A stretch of DNA of 63,429 bases, taken from NCBI GenBank assembly GCA_014377485.1, contig JACMPM010000011.1, forward strand, positions 1-63,429, written 5' to 3'. Under the pieces are notes generated by a model. That model saw only the letters and a program-made list of their open reading frames with translations. It had not been told where the DNA came from and did no database searches. The position numbers and the translations under genes are program-made. Positions 52,976 through 61,668 of the stretch are shown here, in pieces. Each line of letters begins with the position of its first letter. Within the stretch, counting starts at the first letter, position 1. The stretch is from Bacteriovorax sp. (GTDB lineage: Bacteria > Bdellovibrionota > Bacteriovoracia > Bacteriovoracales > Bacteriovoracaceae).

Positions 52976-53935
52976 TTACAACATATTCAACAAATCCAAC
53001 TCAACACTAAAACTCCCCCCCGAAACACAATCACTATCTACCCCACCGCTCAACAAAACAGTGTGTTTAAATATATCGCCTTTTTTTACTTCAACATCTC
53101 GAGACTGAACATCTGAAGAAATTCCACTTCCAGGAATTGTTGCGACAATGTCATTGTTTTTATAAACTCTCCAGGTCACTGAAGTATCATTGGCAATTCC
53201 AGTCCATGATATTTTTGCAGTTCCCGCTCCATCGGCCGTCCATGAATCGAGAACATGCTCTGCACTTCCCATCCCGCCTTCACAATGCTGATATTGTTTT
53301 TGGTGAATAGGAGTGTCCCCTTTTACATAAACAGAAGGTGGATTACATTTTTTACCTGCAGTATTCACACTTCTTCCAAGTGCATTGCAAAGGGATGCAA
53401 GGTTTGTAGTCGAAGCTAGTGCATTACAACTTAAAATATTTCCAGAGTCATCAACACTTACTGATATCGGAATTTTAAAAGTTTTAAGCTTTGCGCCTAG
53501 AACCATTTTTCCTCTATCATAATTAACAATAAGAACTGTCTCTCCAACTTTCTGCCCTTTAGGAATCAAATAAGTTTCATCTGTCTTTAAATCATACCCC
53601 GTAATCATCACTCCGGAGTTACCAATTTTTTTTTCGTTGGCAGTAAAACGTTTTTGAATTGTTCCATCAGAGAGAACTTTTTGAATCTCTTTAACGGCAC
53701 TAGGTATATTCGGATTAATCCCTTTAAAAGTTTTCTCACACGAACTTCCATCAGCAACAATATTTCTAATTTCTTGTCCAAGGGAATCGATATCCATATT
53801 GGTTGCAGTTGTTTTTTCATTCTTGGTTTGCTGAGTGAAAATATTCATCATCCAAGCTGAAAGGGCACCCATCAGACCTATGGCAATTAAGATTTCAATC
53901 AATGAAAATCCCGACCTGTTTTTTAAAATCTTCAT
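52976..53935 (-). CDS. Pseudopilin / prepilin-type protein
   Basis: The N-terminus reads KILKNRSGFSLIEILIAIGL: a short basic leader, the prepilin peptidase site G-FSLIE with Glu at +5 of the mature protein, and a long hydrophobic helix. The remaining 270 residues have two parts, one with DLKTDETYLIPKG and a C-terminal domain with several Cys and beta-rich composition. It should be processed by a PilD-type peptidase and may be a minor pilin or type II pseudopilin. Its ATG overlaps the stop of the adenylating-enzyme gene (ATGA), an unexpected neighbour. Confidence 0.82.
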   Translation of the reverse strand: MKILKNRSGFSLIEILIAIGLMGALSAWMMNIFTQQTKNEKTTATNMDIDSLGQEIRNIVADGSSCEKTFKGINPNIPSAVKEIQKVLSDGTIQKRFTANEKKIGNSGVMITGYDLKTDETYLIPKGQKVGETVLIVNYDRGKMVLGAKLKTFKIPISVSVDDSGNILSCNALASTTNLASLCNALGRSVNTAGKKCNPPSVYVKGDTPIHQKQYQHCEGGMGSAEHVLDSWTADGAGTAKISWTGIANDTSVTWRVYKNNDIVATIPGSGISSDVQSRDVEVKKGDIFKHTVLLSGGVDSDCVSGGSFSVELDLLNML

Positions 53936-55197
53936 TTGCCGCTCCGGTTATCAATGACCCTTTTTAATTTTCCAGTTCTTGCGTTTGCCTCAAGCTGACT
54001 CATCACTACGATTTCAATTTTCAGAGGGTGAACAAGATTTTTAGCTAAGATATCTTCATAAACTGCTTTTTCTTTTTTAAAGGATTCAATTACGCGCTCT
54101 ACAATAGTCGAATCAGGTTTTAAGTTATGTCCTGCAATCCGAAAGATGAGTTCATCCTTATGGGCAAAATGATTCAAGATCATTTGAAACTGAAGTCCGC
54201 TAATTTCCTTGAGTGCATTCATAACCATTACGCGTGTGTCTTCGAAATAAACACTTATGGTTCCAAGTCTAGCGGCTTCATCAGATCTTCCTTGCAATTT
54301 GAATTTGCGATCAGGAGTCTCTGCACTTTCTATCCACATTGCCAAATCGCCAGCTGGATAACGAATAATGGGCATGAGTTTTCGAGTGAGATTGGTGAGT
54401 AAAACTTTTCCAACACGGTTTTCTTCGGTGATAACTTCGTTGGTATCTGGATCAATAATTTCAATAATAATTGAGCCATCAAAAACTCGGTGTTCTCCAT
54501 CGGCACAATCGCCATCTGAATACCCCAAAAGTCCCCCATCAACGCTGGCGTAACCGATGGAAGAAATTTTAATATCTGGAAATATTTTTTTTAAGGCAAG
54601 ATATTGATCAGGATAAAGAGCTTCACCACCAAAAAGTATTTTTTCTATCTTAACGTTTGGATAATTTTTTTTCTCGCGGTCGTAATATTCTAGCAGTGTA
54701 AGAATGGCGGAAGGAACTCCCACCATGACATTAATGGAGAACTCTTCCAGTGTTTTTAAAATATGACTTGGCCCTGTCGCGCCTGCAATCGGAAATTGCA
54801 AAAGTTTTTTATTCTCAACAGGAATCCATTGCAAAGAATCTTTTATAAAAAGAAATGAAGCATAGAGATCTCCTACATAAAAAAGATTGGCCACGCGGTC
54901 GTAATCTTCAAGAATTCCTTGTGACATTCCCCAACCAAAAGCCTCAGTAAAACTTTGCCATTCTAATGAAGTAAAATAGGAATATTTCGGCGCTCCAGTG
55001 CTACCTCCGCTTTTAAAAACAATACCGTCTCTTTTATCAGTTGTGAGCACATCACCTTTCCAAAATTTAAATTGATCAGTAACCGGTAGATCAGACAATT
55101 TTTCAAACTTGGAATTAGCATAAAGTTCACGATAAAAAGGTGAATGACTTTTTGCGTGCTCTACAATTTCTTTCAAAGACCATTTTTGAATTGTCAT
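53932..55197 (-). CDS. PaaK/LuxE-like adenylating enzyme
   Basis: A 421-residue member of the PaaK-like branch of the ANL superfamily (acid activation as acyl-AMP). From ATG 55197 (AGGA upstream) the P-loop-type motif SGGSTGAPK is at 63-71, IIRYPAGD is the Y-x-x-G-D motif, LQGRSDEAARLG follows, and TGKLKRVIDNRS at the end carries the candidate catalytic Lys. There is no Cys-rich metal site, unlike many PaaK enzymes. It is paralogous to the second half of the 841-residue protein upstream, whose stop it overlaps by a few bases. Confidence 0.85.
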   Translation of the reverse strand: MTIQKWSLKEIVEHAKSHSPFYRELYANSKFEKLSDLPVTDQFKFWKGDVLTTDKRDGIVFKSGGSTGAPKYSYFTSLEWQSFTEAFGWGMSQGILEDYDRVANLFYVGDLYASFLFIKDSLQWIPVENKKLLQFPIAGATGPSHILKTLEEFSINVMVGVPSAILTLLEYYDREKKNYPNVKIEKILFGGEALYPDQYLALKKIFPDIKISSIGYASVDGGLLGYSDGDCADGEHRVFDGSIIIEIIDPDTNEVITEENRVGKVLLTNLTRKLMPIIRYPAGDLAMWIESAETPDRKFKLQGRSDEAARLGTISVYFEDTRVMVMNALKEISGLQFQMILNHFAHKDELIFRIAGHNLKPDSTIVERVIESFKKEKAVYEDILAKNLVHPLKIEIVVMSQLEANARTGKLKRVIDNRSGK

Positions 55198-55198
55198 A

Positions 55199-57724
55199 TT
55201 AATTCCTATGATCCAGAACACTTCTAAGTTTTCCGGTGCTAGCACTAAATTCAAGCTTAGATCGATCAGTTATTTCGATTTCAAAATCGAGAACCAGGTC
55301 TTTATTGACCACTTCGTTTAAGTCGCTGTAGTCAGCAAGGATTCTAGTTTGAAGAAAATCTTTGGTCACAGTATTTTTAAAAAGATTTTCTATTTGAAGC
55401 ACTACTTTTTCTTTCTTCGTTGCGCTCCCAGCGAGTAAATGAAGCTGGAATGATCCTTCAAAATCAAATTTATCTATTAAGAGTTTTTGAAATTTTTGGT
55501 AACTTAAAAAAGTTGTTCCAATTCTAAAGACATCACCATGTCTGCCCAAGAGGTCAAATCTTGTTCCGACTCTTCCGCACTCACATCTTCCTTCGATAAT
55601 TCTTCCCACATCGCCAATTGCATAGCGCTCAATCTTTTGCCCGTGGCGAACTTTTGAAGTGAATAAAAATCTTCCCACTTCACCCTTTTTCACAGGACTA
55701 TCAGTCTCCAGCTCCACAACTTCTAGTTCGTGAAGACGTTCATTTAAATGATGAACTCCGCCATCTGCGAATTCACATTGAAATCCTAGTGGTCCGGCAT
55801 CAACCGATCCATAACTGGCAGAACGGATGATTACTACACCGAATTCACTCTTCAAATAATTTCTTTGAGTTTCACTAAAGTGTTCACCACCATAAAATAT
55901 TTTTTTAATTCCACGGTATTGTTTAAACAATTCACTGTTGGCTGCAAAAAGTTGGATAAAATAAGAAGGCATTCCCAATAATGTATCCACTTTATTTTTT
56001 ACAATGGTTTTTCCAACCAGCTCGAAATCAGTACTCGCCCCCATTGGAAAATGAACAGCATTGAGTTTTTCTAGAATTGTAAAAAAACTAACGAAGCCTC
56101 CGTATAAACTTCCGGCGTAAAATAGATTCATGCATCGATCAGTTTTAGGGTCTAATCCTGCAGCATAAAGCCCTTCTGCCGCAACTTCCATCTGACGGTG
56201 ATAATCGGCATAAGTAAAAATAGAAAGTTTAGGCTCTCCCGAACTTCCTCCGCTGTAAAAATAAAGATCAGCGTAAATGTCATCCACAACTTGTGCTTGA
56301 AAATCGCTCTTCTCCATAATCTTGCTGGACTTTGGAAGAGGGCTTGCAGATTGTTCTTCAAATGAGCTTTTATGGGCCATTAATTTTAAAGATTCAGAAT
56401 CGGTATAAGAAATTTTCTGGCAATATCTCTCTAGTGCGTAAACTCCATCATGAGGCTCACCCAGGTAAGAGTCAGTCATATCACCAATCGCGCGAACTCT
56501 TTGAACACCTGCTTGAAATAATGTTCGAGTTAATTCTTCAATTTCGTTTTTATTAGCAGAAACTCCAACGGTTTGCAGGTAGACTTTCAGCGGTTTTAAA
56601 TTATGAACGATTTTATTTTTGGGCATCGGTTTTACCCAGATAGTCCGAAATAATGGAGAGGCATTCAGAGAGGCGGTATCCTCTATATAAATGCGCCAAT
56701 CATTTTTAGCTGAAATTATAGCTTCACTATTTCCAAACATGGAGTTCAGTCTTACCTGTTCTCTACTAACAGTTAATTCCGCTGTTTCCTGAATTCCAGG
56801 AAGAACTCTAGCGATAGTCGGAGAAACTAAATCCAGGGCTTTTGCCAGATTTTTTGAAAAGTTTTTTAACTCTTCAAAACTAGCGTCTTCTAGTAATATA
56901 CATTGAGGACTAGAGCACGCCATTTGTTCATTATTACAAATTTCAAAGGCCATCTTTTTGAGCATTTCTTCATAGGAAGCCGTGGCTTTTGAAACATAAG
57001 CAAAAGAAATTTTATGTCCCCACTCAACGATGCGGGCACGACTAGGTGCCATTTCTCTTAAACTTTTTATGCTCTCTTCACTTCCCCATGCGGAGACGAC
57101 ATCCGCAATTGATAAAAAGTCCTTCAAGTAAGATTTATCAGATGAAGAAACTTTTCCGATATAAATATAATCTTTGAAAGTTTTACTCGTATCAATAGAG
57201 CATAACTCTTTATAAAAGATGGCGGCAAAAGAGCTATCTTTTCTTGCTAACTTCAATACATTTACATTGCCGCTGAGCAAGCCTTCAATCACTCCCAATA
57301 CACCAAGTAGTGGTGAATTATTAGGAGTCACATGAACTAATACTCCTAATGGGAACCAAGATTCAAAATGGTTTTCACGAAAATTAATTCTTTTTAATTC
57401 AAAAGGAAATTCACTTCCTAACTCACGGGAGAGCTTCAACCGTAGGTTATCTACACTTAGGAATTCTTCCAGCGCTTGCATCGATAGTTCAATTTCTTCA
57501 TCTCTAACATCGGGACGACTTTTAAGATCATTCACCAAGGCTCGATAAAACTCACCTCTTTCTTTTAATTTGAAAGACGCTTTTTCAATCAGGTTAAATA
57601 ATAGAGAAGATGAAAGCGGTTTTTTACTCCAAAATCCAGAGTTATGAATATGTTCATAAAATAAATTTTTAAATTCATCGTCTGTAACAATTTTTCCTTG
57701 CCAAAGATTGCTTATATTACTCAT
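55199..57724 (-). CDS. LuxC-type acyl reductase fused to a PaaK/LuxE-like adenylating domain
   Basis: Residues 1-440 are a LuxC-family NADPH-dependent acyl reductase (acyl thioester to aldehyde): the aldehyde-dehydrogenase-like core with PLGVLVHVTPNNSPLLG (125-141) and the catalytic Cys270 in NEQMACSSPQC. Residues 480-841 are a PaaK-like adenylating domain with SGGSSGEPK (491-499), YAIGDVGRIIEGRCECGR, the GRHGDVFRIG hinge and ASTGKLRSVLDHRN at the end. The two are joined by a Ser-rich linker. A complete fusion of acid activation and reduction in one chain is unusual. It starts inside the end of the LuxE-like gene (ATGA). Confidence 0.87.
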   Translation of the reverse strand: MSNISNLWQGKIVTDDEFKNLFYEHIHNSGFWSKKPLSSSLLFNLIEKASFKLKERGEFYRALVNDLKSRPDVRDEEIELSMQALEEFLSVDNLRLKLSRELGSEFPFELKRINFRENHFESWFPLGVLVHVTPNNSPLLGVLGVIEGLLSGNVNVLKLARKDSSFAAIFYKELCSIDTSKTFKDYIYIGKVSSSDKSYLKDFLSIADVVSAWGSEESIKSLREMAPSRARIVEWGHKISFAYVSKATASYEEMLKKMAFEICNNEQMACSSPQCILLEDASFEELKNFSKNLAKALDLVSPTIARVLPGIQETAELTVSREQVRLNSMFGNSEAIISAKNDWRIYIEDTASLNASPLFRTIWVKPMPKNKIVHNLKPLKVYLQTVGVSANKNEIEELTRTLFQAGVQRVRAIGDMTDSYLGEPHDGVYALERYCQKISYTDSESLKLMAHKSSFEEQSASPLPKSSKIMEKSDFQAQVVDDIYADLYFYSGGSSGEPKLSIFTYADYHRQMEVAAEGLYAAGLDPKTDRCMNLFYAGSLYGGFVSFFTILEKLNAVHFPMGASTDFELVGKTIVKNKVDTLLGMPSYFIQLFAANSELFKQYRGIKKIFYGGEHFSETQRNYLKSEFGVVIIRSASYGSVDAGPLGFQCEFADGGVHHLNERLHELEVVELETDSPVKKGEVGRFLFTSKVRHGQKIERYAIGDVGRIIEGRCECGRVGTRFDLLGRHGDVFRIGTTFLSYQKFQKLLIDKFDFEGSFQLHLLAGSATKKEKVVLQIENLFKNTVTKDFLQTRILADYSDLNEVVNKDLVLDFEIEITDRSKLEFSASTGKLRSVLDHRN

Positions 57725-58890
57725 GATGACTTACCTTTTAAAAGTTCACTTGCGGCCAGGGCACAACTTTTATTTTTAGAGACACCTGCTCTTCCGTGCA
57801 CTCTAAAATAAGGACTGCCAAGTCCGCACCCACAATTCTTACCTTCGTGAAGCGATGCCATATCACCCATAATCACCGAGTGCGCCGGCATTGAAGTAAT
57901 ATAAGGTGAAACAAAATGCAAAAAACCTTTTTCTTCAAACCCCAGTGGCTTCATCGTTTCAACATCTCTGATAAAAACTCTAGACCATACTGGAACATGA
58001 AATTCATGATTCTTGCATTCCACATATGGCACACAATGCTCGACAGACCCAAATCCATCTCTAAGCCGTTCATTGGGAATTCCCAACATCTCTTCAACTA
58101 AGGAATAAAAATCTTCTTTAGCAATGGCCTTGTCAGCATTGCCTTTCCATCCGCCGCCTAAAAAAACCATCGAGTCTGGATGCATTTTGAGAGGCGCTAT
58201 TCCTAACTTTTTCATTCTCTCTAAGGCAAAATAAAAGAAGGCCGGAAAACCAAAGAGTCTTACTGGAAGTCCTTGGGTGGAAAATTTTTGAAATGCTTCG
58301 ATAGTTCCAAAACAATCAAATTCATGTCCACCATTTCCAGTGAGTTTCAATGCATAAAATACTTCATTCACAGGAGCATACTTGCAAAGAAAATTATCAG
58401 TATAGGCAGTTCCTAATTTTGAAGAACTTTCAGTCTCGTAACTAAAAAGAATGTAATTACATTTTTGTTCCGGAGTGATCCAATTGTATTTTTCAAAAAT
58501 TGAATCGACCATTCTTTGAGCTGACCTGATGGTCCATTCATCAAAGAATATTTGAGACTTCTGTCCAGTCGTTCCCGAGGAGGTTAAGTGCAGAAAAATA
58601 TCTTTTTCTGGAACAGACATTACTTCATGGGCCTTAAAAAAATGGGCCCAAAGATGGGGAATCTTTAAACAATCAACGAGAGTTTTTACACTCTCCACAG
58701 AAAAATTCTGAGAGTTGGAAAGTTTTTTATAAAAATCACATTGCTCAATATGCCACGACGTAATTTCTTTCATTGCTAAAATAAACTCGTCATCATTAGC
58801 GGCAAAGTCTTCATAGGGTGAAGTTCTATCGCAAACTTTTTGAACAGTTTTTAATTTTTCTAAATTTGGTACTCTAAGTTTTTGGTCCAT
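57721..58890 (-). CDS. LuxE-type acyl-protein synthetase
   Basis: Activates a fatty acid as acyl-AMP and carries it on Cys; in luminous bacteria it feeds LuxC. The 389-residue protein (ATG 58890, GAGG six bases upstream) shows HLTSSGTTGQKSQ (101-113), FLGGGWKG, and the C-terminal GRAGVSKNKSCALAASELL, in which the Cys matches the acylated Cys of LuxE. It has CGCG near the end, possibly a metal site. It overlaps the GNAT gene by 17 bases. No luxA, luxB or luxD lies in the window. Confidence 0.88.
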   Translation of the reverse strand: MDQKLRVPNLEKLKTVQKVCDRTSPYEDFAANDDEFILAMKEITSWHIEQCDFYKKLSNSQNFSVESVKTLVDCLKIPHLWAHFFKAHEVMSVPEKDIFLHLTSSGTTGQKSQIFFDEWTIRSAQRMVDSIFEKYNWITPEQKCNYILFSYETESSSKLGTAYTDNFLCKYAPVNEVFYALKLTGNGGHEFDCFGTIEAFQKFSTQGLPVRLFGFPAFFYFALERMKKLGIAPLKMHPDSMVFLGGGWKGNADKAIAKEDFYSLVEEMLGIPNERLRDGFGSVEHCVPYVECKNHEFHVPVWSRVFIRDVETMKPLGFEEKGFLHFVSPYITSMPAHSVIMGDMASLHEGKNCGCGLGSPYFRVHGRAGVSKNKSCALAASELLKGKSS

Positions 58891-60043
58891 AAATAACCTC
58901 AATCGTATCCAGGTTTACTTGCTTCCAAGCATCTACATACTGATCAATAAAAGGTTTAAAAGGTGCTACAACTGCCATTCCACGAAAATTGAGCGGTTCC
59001 ATGGTTCTACTCATCACAATATAGTCCTCGTAATTATTTTTCACTTCTCTCATGGCCGGATAAATGGCCGAAGGAAGAAACTGTCCACTAAGAAGTGTAT
59101 CGATTAATGGAGTGTGTTTTACGTTCACAAGAACTTCTATATAAGACACCCCGATATCATCGAGCTGCATATAAAGACTAGAAAGCCGTCCATTGAGTTC
59201 AGTAATAGGACGAGTGGATTTGATCAAAGTGCAATAACCGTCACGTTTACTAAAATAAGCAAAAATTTCGATGCGCCCTTTTTTATCTGCGATAATCATA
59301 TTGGGAGTATGAAAAGGAAAGAAGCGGTCATTTGGATCTGGAAATCTTTCATAAAATTTTCGAAGCACATAATTGGGCGCACGAATAATTTCAAATTCCC
59401 ATTCTTCTTCGCTCTCTTCCACATTTACCGGTGCAATGGGAGAAGGCTTCGGTAAACTAATTTTAGGAACAAGTTTTTTCAAAATATCATAAAGTGGGAT
59501 GACTTTAGCGGATACATCAGTTTCCGGTTTTCTTTTCTCTAAAATTCCTTCACGGAACTTTGCAAAAAGGGTAACCGTTTCATAGTGATGCAAACGATGA
59601 GCATTGGGAAAAATACCTAATGGCAGATAATCATTTTTTATAAAAATCATTTGAGGCCCGACTGTAATAGTTCTTGTCGTGGCATACAATGAATTGAGCC
59701 TGGTATCTTTTTTAAGAAAAAATTCACTTACAAATTGCACTAACCCATTTCCAATTTTATGCCGTTGATAAGTTGGATGAACAACGAGTCCCACCATTTT
59801 CCCAATTTTGTTGAAGGCGTCGATTTCAATAATCAAGGCACCGGCGATAACTCGATTCATTACATCTCTTGCCACTAGAACCTTATGTGTTTCTTTATCT
59901 TCAATCGATTTTTTTAGTAGATCAGGATCAGTTCCATAGGAGATCGGATATTTTCGACCATAAACGGCACGGTAAAGATTGATAATTTCATCAACATCAC
60001 TTACATCCGCTTCTTGTATTTGCAGCTCTATTCCGATTTCCAT
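58874..60043 (-). CDS. GNAT N-acyltransferase, probably two-domain
   Basis: Residues 8-150 form a GNAT domain: EADVSDVDEIINLY at the start, KMVGLVVHPTYQRHKIGNGL as the acetyl-CoA loop (Q-R-x-x-x-G-x-G form), and QMIFIKNDYLPLGIFPNAH. After a Pro-rich linker (about 195-215) a second half, about 230-370, has a similar length and strand-helix pattern (MIIADKKGRIEIFAYF, YIEVLVNVKHTP, GQFLPSAIYPAM) and may be a second, degenerate GNAT-like fold. It is coupled to the MFS gene upstream (16-base overlap) and to luxE-like downstream. The acyl donor and acceptor are unknown. Confidence 0.8.
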   Translation of the reverse strand: MEIGIELQIQEADVSDVDEIINLYRAVYGRKYPISYGTDPDLLKKSIEDKETHKVLVARDVMNRVIAGALIIEIDAFNKIGKMVGLVVHPTYQRHKIGNGLVQFVSEFFLKKDTRLNSLYATTRTITVGPQMIFIKNDYLPLGIFPNAHRLHHYETVTLFAKFREGILEKRKPETDVSAKVIPLYDILKKLVPKISLPKPSPIAPVNVEESEEEWEFEIIRAPNYVLRKFYERFPDPNDRFFPFHTPNMIIADKKGRIEIFAYFSKRDGYCTLIKSTRPITELNGRLSSLYMQLDDIGVSYIEVLVNVKHTPLIDTLLSGQFLPSAIYPAMREVKNNYEDYIVMSRTMEPLNFRGMAVVAPFKPFIDQYVDAWKQVNLDTIEVIYGPKT

Positions 60044-61254
60044 ACTGGTCCTTGTAAAAATTTAGGCATAAGAATGGCTATAAATATAATGAGTACACCA
60101 CTTAGTTTTGCAAAATTGGGAATGGAGACATGGGGAAAAATTAGACCTGAGAATACCAGAGATAAGGGAACAGAAGCGGCACTTATAATATTCACAGCTG
60201 TCATGATGGCCGGAACTTCTTCTTCTGATAAAGCAGTTTGAAAATAAGTGAGTACTTGTATATTTAAAAAGGTGCTGATAATTCCGATAGAAAAAAGTAT
60301 GACGGCTCCATGCCAAGTGAAATATGAATAAGCAAAGATCAGAAAAAATAGTCCGAATAAAAAAGAAACCAACGCTATCATCGATATTCTTTTGTCCGTG
60401 TTGACTTGAAAACTTGAAAAAGACAAGTACAGTCCGGTGACAAATGCTCCAACTCCCATTGCTCCTTCGATTATGGCAAGAGAACTGGAGTCACCCATAT
60501 ATATTTTTTGAACATACCAGGGAATCATGACCAGTATGGGAGTAAAGACCAGATTCAAAAATAAAAAACTTACAAGCATTCGGGCAATATCAGGGTATTT
60601 TTTTAAAACAAACATCGGCCCAATTTCAGCTGTATTTCCTTCTACTGAAGGAGCGGATTGCTCTCGAGTTTTTAAACCCATTTGTAAAATACCTGCCCAG
60701 ACAAAACTTAGCGCATTAATCAGAATCAACGTTTTTAAATCAACAAAACTTAAAATGAAAATTGCAAAAGTTGCACCTAAAATAGTTGAGATAGACATAC
60801 TAGAATCTATGAGTGCATTGAGGCCCATTACTTTGTCAGGAGCTACTAATTTTGGCGGCAATGAAAGAATGGCCGGATTAAATAGACTGGATCCAAGACC
60901 CACAAAAAAACCTGAGACAAACAAAGCCTCCAAAAGTTGATTTCCTTCTAACTTCAAAAAATGAATGGATCCGAATAAAATAAATAAAACAGTTCCTCGA
61001 AAAAATTCGGAAGCAATAACTGTTCTCAACGCCCCTACTCGATTAATAATGGACGTGGAAAAAAAGGCCATCAGCAAATGCGGAAGAAAGCTTGCAGCTA
61101 AAAACCAGGGAACTACGTTTATTGAATACTCTTTGGTGAGATACCAAATCAAGCCTATGGACATCATTTTGTCGCAAATTGCAGAGACTAGTTGAGAGAC
61201 AAAAATAAGCGCCGAATTCTTGTCTTTAAGAACATCCATATTAATTAAACTCAT
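60028..61254 (-). CDS. MFS transporter
   Basis: A 408-residue inner-membrane protein with about 12 hydrophobic segments and an MFS-type cytoplasmic loop between helices 2 and 3 (INRVGALRTVIASEF, in place of the usual G-x-x-x-D-R-x-G-R-R). It resembles drug or macrolide efflux-type transporters (MefA-like layout with a long central loop). It is the first gene of the six-gene operon and probably exports its product or a toxic intermediate such as an aldehyde. Confidence 0.87.
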   Translation of the reverse strand: MSLINMDVLKDKNSALIFVSQLVSAICDKMMSIGLIWYLTKEYSINVVPWFLAASFLPHLLMAFFSTSIINRVGALRTVIASEFFRGTVLFILFGSIHFLKLEGNQLLEALFVSGFFVGLGSSLFNPAILSLPPKLVAPDKVMGLNALIDSSMSISTILGATFAIFILSFVDLKTLILINALSFVWAGILQMGLKTREQSAPSVEGNTAEIGPMFVLKKYPDIARMLVSFLFLNLVFTPILVMIPWYVQKIYMGDSSSLAIIEGAMGVGAFVTGLYLSFSSFQVNTDKRISMIALVSFLFGLFFLIFAYSYFTWHGAVILFSIGIISTFLNIQVLTYFQTALSEEEVPAIMTAVNIISAASVPLSLVFSGLIFPHVSIPNFAKLSGVLIIFIAILMPKFLQGPVWKSE

Positions 61255-61314: not shown

Positions 61315-61668
61315 TTAGTCAAGTAATGAGAGGATCCGATCGGCGATATTTTTTGCCTCTAAAGGCTTAGTTATGTAGTTTTTTACCAGCCCTTCTACTA
61401 ATGACTTGGATTCCTCGCTCCCCACTGCTACCAAGACGGCTTTTGCTGAGTACTCACTGAGTACTTTGATGTGGTTTAGGGATGTATCTACGTCGAAAAT
61501 TATCAAATCTGGTAATAAATCGTCCAGTAGGTAGAAATTATTCTCAATACTGGCAACTGTATAGATTTCTGCTCCCCGAGCTTTCAGGGCGAACTCCATC
61601 ATTGAGCGCAAAAACTCAACTTTTTCGATGTAAAATACTTTTTTCTTATGCTCTTGGGGCTTTACCAT
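61315..61668 (-). CDS. Receiver-domain protein
   Basis: A 117-residue response-regulator fold: YIEKVEFLRSMM (the acidic pocket is Glu only), the phospho-acceptor Asp in IFDVDTS, VAVGSEE in place of the Thr/Ser strand, and the Lys of YITKPLE. The pocket is slightly unusual but the main residues are there. No output domain. It lies between the lux-like operon and a divergent gene 28 bases away. Confidence 0.8.
   Translation of the reverse strand: MVKPQEHKKKVFYIEKVEFLRSMMEFALKARGAEIYTVASIENNFYLLDDLLPDLIIFDVDTSLNHIKVLSEYSAKAVLVAVGSEESKSLVEGLVKNYITKPLEAKNIADRILSLLD

Follow-up and report, generated by a model that had tools for sequence, protein, structure and literature searches.

An operon with LuxC- and LuxE-type enzymes in Bacteriovorax sp. 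that probably makes and exports a leupeptin-type aldehyde

We analysed a run of genes on the minus strand of a 63,429-nt stretch of DNA (the window) from Bacteriovorax sp. (Bacteriovoracaceae; contig JACMPM010000011.1, assembly GCA_014377485.1). Judging from its recurrence in other genomes, a set of five genes—encoding an MFS exporter, a GNAT acyltransferase, a LuxE-type enzyme, a fusion of LuxC with an adenylation domain (LuxC/A) and a second PaaK-like ligase (A2)—belongs together. With high confidence, we assign this cassette to an exported, aldehyde-forming small-molecule pathway, and within that its product is probably a leupeptin-type aldehyde of an N-acylated peptide (or amino acid), which the operon would build on its own, without an NRPS, and then export. 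Peptide aldehydes inhibit proteases covalently and also serve as precursors of pyrazinone signals. If correct, the cassette would be a minimal exportable non-NRPS system that moves between phyla and connects bacteria that have predatory relatives with protease inhibition or signalling; it also offers a small gene set for heterologous expression. The original prediction of a small-molecule operon that activates and reduces an acid, modifies it with the GNAT enzyme, exports it and is not tied to light is supported for these steps, but not for the inclusion of a pseudopilin gene, and it missed the closest parallel, leupeptin-type peptide aldehyde biosynthesis.

Operon organization and gene content

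Six ORFs span positions 52976–61254 and, as originally described, overlap or lie a few bases apart at every junction (overlaps of 4–17 bp and one 1-bp gap, calculated from the coordinates). The run opens with an MFS exporter of the MefA/EntS-like H+ antiporter subgroup (60028–61254, minus strand as for all genes here; 408 aa; PF07690, 6e-23; TIGR00900, 2e-29), which overlaps by 16 bp with a tandem GNAT acyltransferase (58874–60043; 389 aa; PF00583). The latter overlaps by 17 bp with a LuxE-type acid-activating enzyme (57721–58890; 389 aa; PF04443, 5e-30), followed after a 4-bp overlap by LuxC/A (55199–57724; 841 aa; PF05893, 2e-86, and PF00501), after a 1-bp gap by A2, an AMP-forming ligase (53932–55197; 421 aa; NF045666/TIGR02155), and after a further overlap of 4 bp by a pseudopilin-like gene with a prepilin N-terminus (52976–53935; PF07963). 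The ATG starts of LuxE (58890) and A2 (55197) were moved inward and both lie inside the longest ORFs. For the MFS, GNAT, LuxE, LuxC/A and A2 proteins, dN/dS was 0.05–0.12 in comparisons with measurable dS, which is the mark of purifying selection and, together with the recurrence of the gene order in relatives, indicates that the ORFs are real genes. Promoter and terminator scans returned signals at chance level only. A degenerate receiver-like gene (61315–61668, minus strand; weak PF00072 match, below its cut-off) stands 60 bp upstream of the MFS gene; it evolves fast, is conserved at that place in the genus only and may be the first gene of the operon or a regulator.

Among homologous loci drawn from 40 related genomes, the cassette was present in 12 of the 14 sampled members of the window's genus (the two genomes lacking a match are 84–89% complete), and all 12 kept the arrangement MFS-GNAT-LuxE-LuxC/A-A2. 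Other genera of the family retained the core GNAT-LuxE-LuxC/A-A2 in different genomic surroundings, with a fusion of ~40–48% identity, and three distant family members had GNAT-LuxE-LuxC/A without A2.

Scanning 84,980 species genomes with the fusion yielded 358 related stretches, and we combined the best 80 of these with three plasmid loci into a set of 83 loci from several phyla, counting genes that were chained on the same strand around LuxC/A; this sampling is biased towards loci near the query. In the set (best 80 of 358 plus three plasmid loci), LuxC/A was found at 83/83 loci, LuxE at 81/83, GNAT at 80/83, A2 at 76/83, MFS at 50/83 and the pilin at 2/83. There were 16 gene orders among these 83 loci, the commonest being A2-MFS-GNAT-LuxE-LuxC/A (Streptomyces), GNAT-LuxE-LuxC/A-A2 and MFS-GNAT-LuxE-LuxC/A-A2. 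Thus, the cassette recurs in relatives and across phyla, as the original prediction required, and the repeated reshuffling of order at constant membership argues that the five gene products act together. The pilin, which also adjoins the cassette in only 3 of the 12 genus members (the window, L023 and L026), was rejected as a pathway member on these counts, and we judge it a passenger; in most other genus members, a convergent hflX gene stands after A2.

Some cassettes are plasmid-borne, on conjugative plasmids and, in Streptomyces, on a megaplasmid. An annotated Streptomyces plasmid carries exactly the five cassette genes, and the order LuxE-LuxC/A-PaaK-GNAT is found on an IncF plasmid of Salmonella that was typed as conjugative. 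The intact four-gene cassette lies near recombinase genes on the IncF-type plasmids CP054717.1 (L144, 7806–13564) and CP053580.1 of Salmonella enterica, and two further Salmonella plasmids (CP053407 and NC_019126) match only ~500 bp of the cassette LuxE region at ~90% identity and are perhaps decayed remnants. Several loci had other companions. On a Streptomyces europaeiscabiei plasmid (L154, 3055–11513), LuxE and LuxC sit beside DUF692, MBL-fold and YcaO genes in what looks like a RiPP cluster, the product of which may end in a peptide aldehyde. On a Priestia plasmid (L152, 2681–8613), LuxE occurs with a carrier protein, a fatty acyl-AMP ligase and a cysteine desulfurase. In another family of the phylum, a single run comprises A2, a 489-aa protein with a weak central GNAT match, LuxE, LuxC/A, MFS and GNAT (L062, 5173–14112), and at L060 (6832–10950) the cassette precedes genes for an acyltransferase of the PlsC/OlsA type and a weak GNAT, which suggests a lipidated variant. 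Streptomyces albireticuli, which we take to be a listed leupeptin producer, also carries the cassette (L134); we give this no weight as evidence. None of the papers cited here describes the cassette in Bdellovibrionota.

Catalytic residues and the predicted pathway

LuxC/A consists of a LuxC reductase domain (residues ~1–440) and a PaaK-like adenylation domain (~470–841), which match LuxC of the solved luminous complex (7xc6_A) and PaaK (4r1l), respectively. Its Cys270 (codon 56915–56917) aligns with the DQQACFS motif of 7xc6, and both Cys270 and Lys832 are invariant in 25 sequences; a LuxC domain with this cysteine is predicted to form aldehydes. In LuxE, the invariant Cys376 near the C-terminus (codon 57763–57765) aligns with the C-terminal cysteine of luminous LuxE. 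A2 and the fused adenylation domain align with PaaK and keep its glycine-rich loop and terminal lysine, with the loop and the A10-type Lys410 of A2 being invariant in 20 sequences. The AlphaFold model of the GNAT protein (pLDDT 88.8) contains two GNAT folds in tandem, the first of which matches RimI, Naa60 and PAT (Z ~13–14) and in the model resembles α-amine or amino-acid N-acetyltransferases. The second half, modelled alone (pLDDT 83.4), had only GNATs as top matches (Z up to 10.3) and shows a GNAT fold in which no acetyl-CoA loop can be recognised. The acetyl-CoA loop of the window protein (QRHKIG) deviates from the R/QxxGxG/A consensus, a point against the leupeptin-type reading.

The inventory therefore comprises three AMP-forming activators (LuxE, the LuxC-fused adenylation domain and A2) together with a single reductase, a single N-acyltransferase and a single exporter; none of the operon proteins contains a condensation or carrier domain. 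Among the genes scored at the 83 loci (best 80 of 358 plus three plasmid loci), no further biosynthetic gene was common, so that the gene set looks sufficient if primary metabolites, for example amino acids, serve as starting material; because it includes no aminotransferase or aryl-acid synthase, the amine acylated by GNAT would most simply come from an amino acid. This combination of activities with no precursor-making gene suggests an N-acylated amino-acid or peptide aldehyde. Ac-Leu-Leu-argininal needs three activations, a number equal, by our own reasoning, to the three activators of the cassette. In the proposed route, GNAT would acylate the α-amine of an amino acid, and A2 and the fused adenylation domain would activate the N-acyl chain as it grows, so that amide bonds with further amino acids can form. 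LuxE would then adenylate the final acid, carry it on Cys376 and hand it over to Cys270 of LuxC, where NAD(P)H-dependent reduction of the thioester would leave a C-terminal aldehyde for export by the MFS protein. Gene content, intact catalytic residues, the tandem GNAT fold and recurrence of the set are observations, whereas we infer the substrates, the assignment of ligases to steps, that the product is a peptide and that it inhibits proteases. The products may also differ among family members, given the absence of A2 in some and the divergence of GNAT, with hardly any similarity between the Salmonella protein and that of the window (E 0.003).

The one precedent in the literature is leupeptin of Xenorhabdus, which reportedly arises through distinct AMP-dependent ligases plus a reductase, without an NRPS (PMC11212599), a route that the inventory fits. 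The leupABCD operon of Xenorhabdus, Photorhabdus and Klebsiella is described by Li et al. 2020 as relayed in PMC11212599, PMC8283571 and PMC11480411, and occupies ~5.8 kb with a neighbouring transporter (PMC8283571). From the published coordinates (PMC8283571), the start of leupA to the cluster end measures 5,781 bp, against 5,759 bp for the LuxE-LuxC/A-PaaK-GNAT operon of the Salmonella plasmid. The published leupA primer encodes MKIAIHN, which is not clearly a LuxE start, and the leupB primer peptide EQLKDH resembles EPLHDT at residue 23 of Salmonella LuxC/A, near the expected place, with five other stretches of that protein scoring equally well or better; the primer comparison is consistent with a relationship but not significant. 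For S. roseus, a 1978 title cited in PMC8546846 reports that leupeptin production is transferred by conjugation. A more far-reaching view, which we hold only tentatively, is that a widespread mobile ligase-based peptide-aldehyde cassette exists in Bdellovibrionota, Streptomyces, Massilia and Salmonella plasmids, with gammaproteobacterial leup as at most one branch; predatory bacteria would then use it to make novel protease inhibitors of the aldehyde class, or novel pyrazinone signals, and the cassette may hold the unassigned ligase and reductase genes of actinomycete leupeptin production.

Alternative functions and comparison with known systems

The strongest competitor, which we nevertheless consider rather unlikely, is a carboxylic acid reductase pathway yielding an exported, GNAT-acylated aryl or fatty aldehyde that is not a peptide. 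Aryl or fatty acids are frequent substrates of PaaK-like enzymes, which counts against a peptide product; PaaK homologues use phenylacetate and other acids, and LuxE and LuxC act on fatty acids in luminous bacteria to supply tetradecanal. GriC/GriD, which form 3-amino-4-hydroxybenzaldehyde, provide an aryl precedent (PMC10179220). However, two amide-type ligases would be superfluous in such a pathway, and no aryl-acid or amine-forming gene recurs beside the cassette in the 12 genus members or at the 83 loci (best 80 of 358 plus three plasmid loci). The cassette LuxEs are, moreover, only ~21–25% identical to luminous LuxE, and they stand apart from it in a quick tree, the deep long branches of which are uncertain; there, the window LuxE fell among those of the Bacteriovorax genus (support 98), at a large distance from the luminous enzyme. 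We regard as less probable still, and very unlikely, that the operon modifies a cell-surface polymer or lipid and that the pilin marks this role. A PlsC-like acyltransferase does adjoin the cassette in L060, and luxE-luxC occur with an AMP-ligase in flagellar glycosylation islands of Aeromonas (PMC7874193), but most relatives lack the pilin, the same gene set is found in Gram-positive Streptomyces and on plasmids, and it is an EntS/MefA-type MFS exporter that recurs, with no recurring glycosyltransferase or lipid gene seen.

We rejected a role in bioluminescence. LuxC and LuxE domains are present, and the operon could in principle be a luminescence remnant or supply aldehyde to a luciferase elsewhere, yet no luxA/B-type protein was found in the genome of the organism, in agreement with the original prediction, its sole luciferase-fold protein being an MsnO8/YhbW-type oxidoreductase. 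The fusion of LuxC to a ligase, the purifying selection on the cassette and its recurrence with MFS and GNAT across phyla also speak against this explanation, to which we give almost no credence. The genome contains one LuxE and one full LuxC only; the luxD profile (PF02273) had no match in it, nor did it match the positive controls. Annotation of LuxC and LuxE as 'bioluminescence' is misleading in these genomes that carry the cassette. The surprise that the original prediction implied at LuxC and LuxE without luciferase is not supported, as luciferase-free systems of this kind are already established (GriC/GriD, PMC10179220; Aeromonas, PMC7874193).

An N-acylated peptide or amino-acid aldehyde remains our preferred product, and the cassette can be set against four known systems. 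As described in publications, leupABCD likewise dispenses with an NRPS, uses separate AMP-dependent ligases and a reductase that leaves a C-terminal aldehyde, has an adjacent transporter and comprises four genes of similar total length, whereas the window has another gene order, places MFS inside the operon and encodes a tandem GNAT. The fatty acid reductase of luminous bacteria (LuxC–LuxE, 7xc6) shares the enzyme families, the acyl-carrying cysteines and the sequence of ATP activation followed by NADPH reduction of an enzyme-bound thioester; the window differs in that no luxA/B was found in its genome, and in the fusion of LuxC to a PaaK-like domain, the low identity of its LuxE and the additional PaaK-like ligase, GNAT and MFS. 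In the grixazone pathway, GriC/GriD similarly combine an AMP-forming ligase and a reductase to make an aldehyde outside bioluminescence, but they are two proteins for one aryl acid, embedded in a larger pathway that itself supplies this acid (PMC10179220). The Aeromonas flagellar islands also pair luxE-luxC with an AMP-dependent synthetase and have no luciferase role; there, in contrast to the cassette, luxE-luxC sit among glycosyltransferase and sugar genes (PMC7874193).
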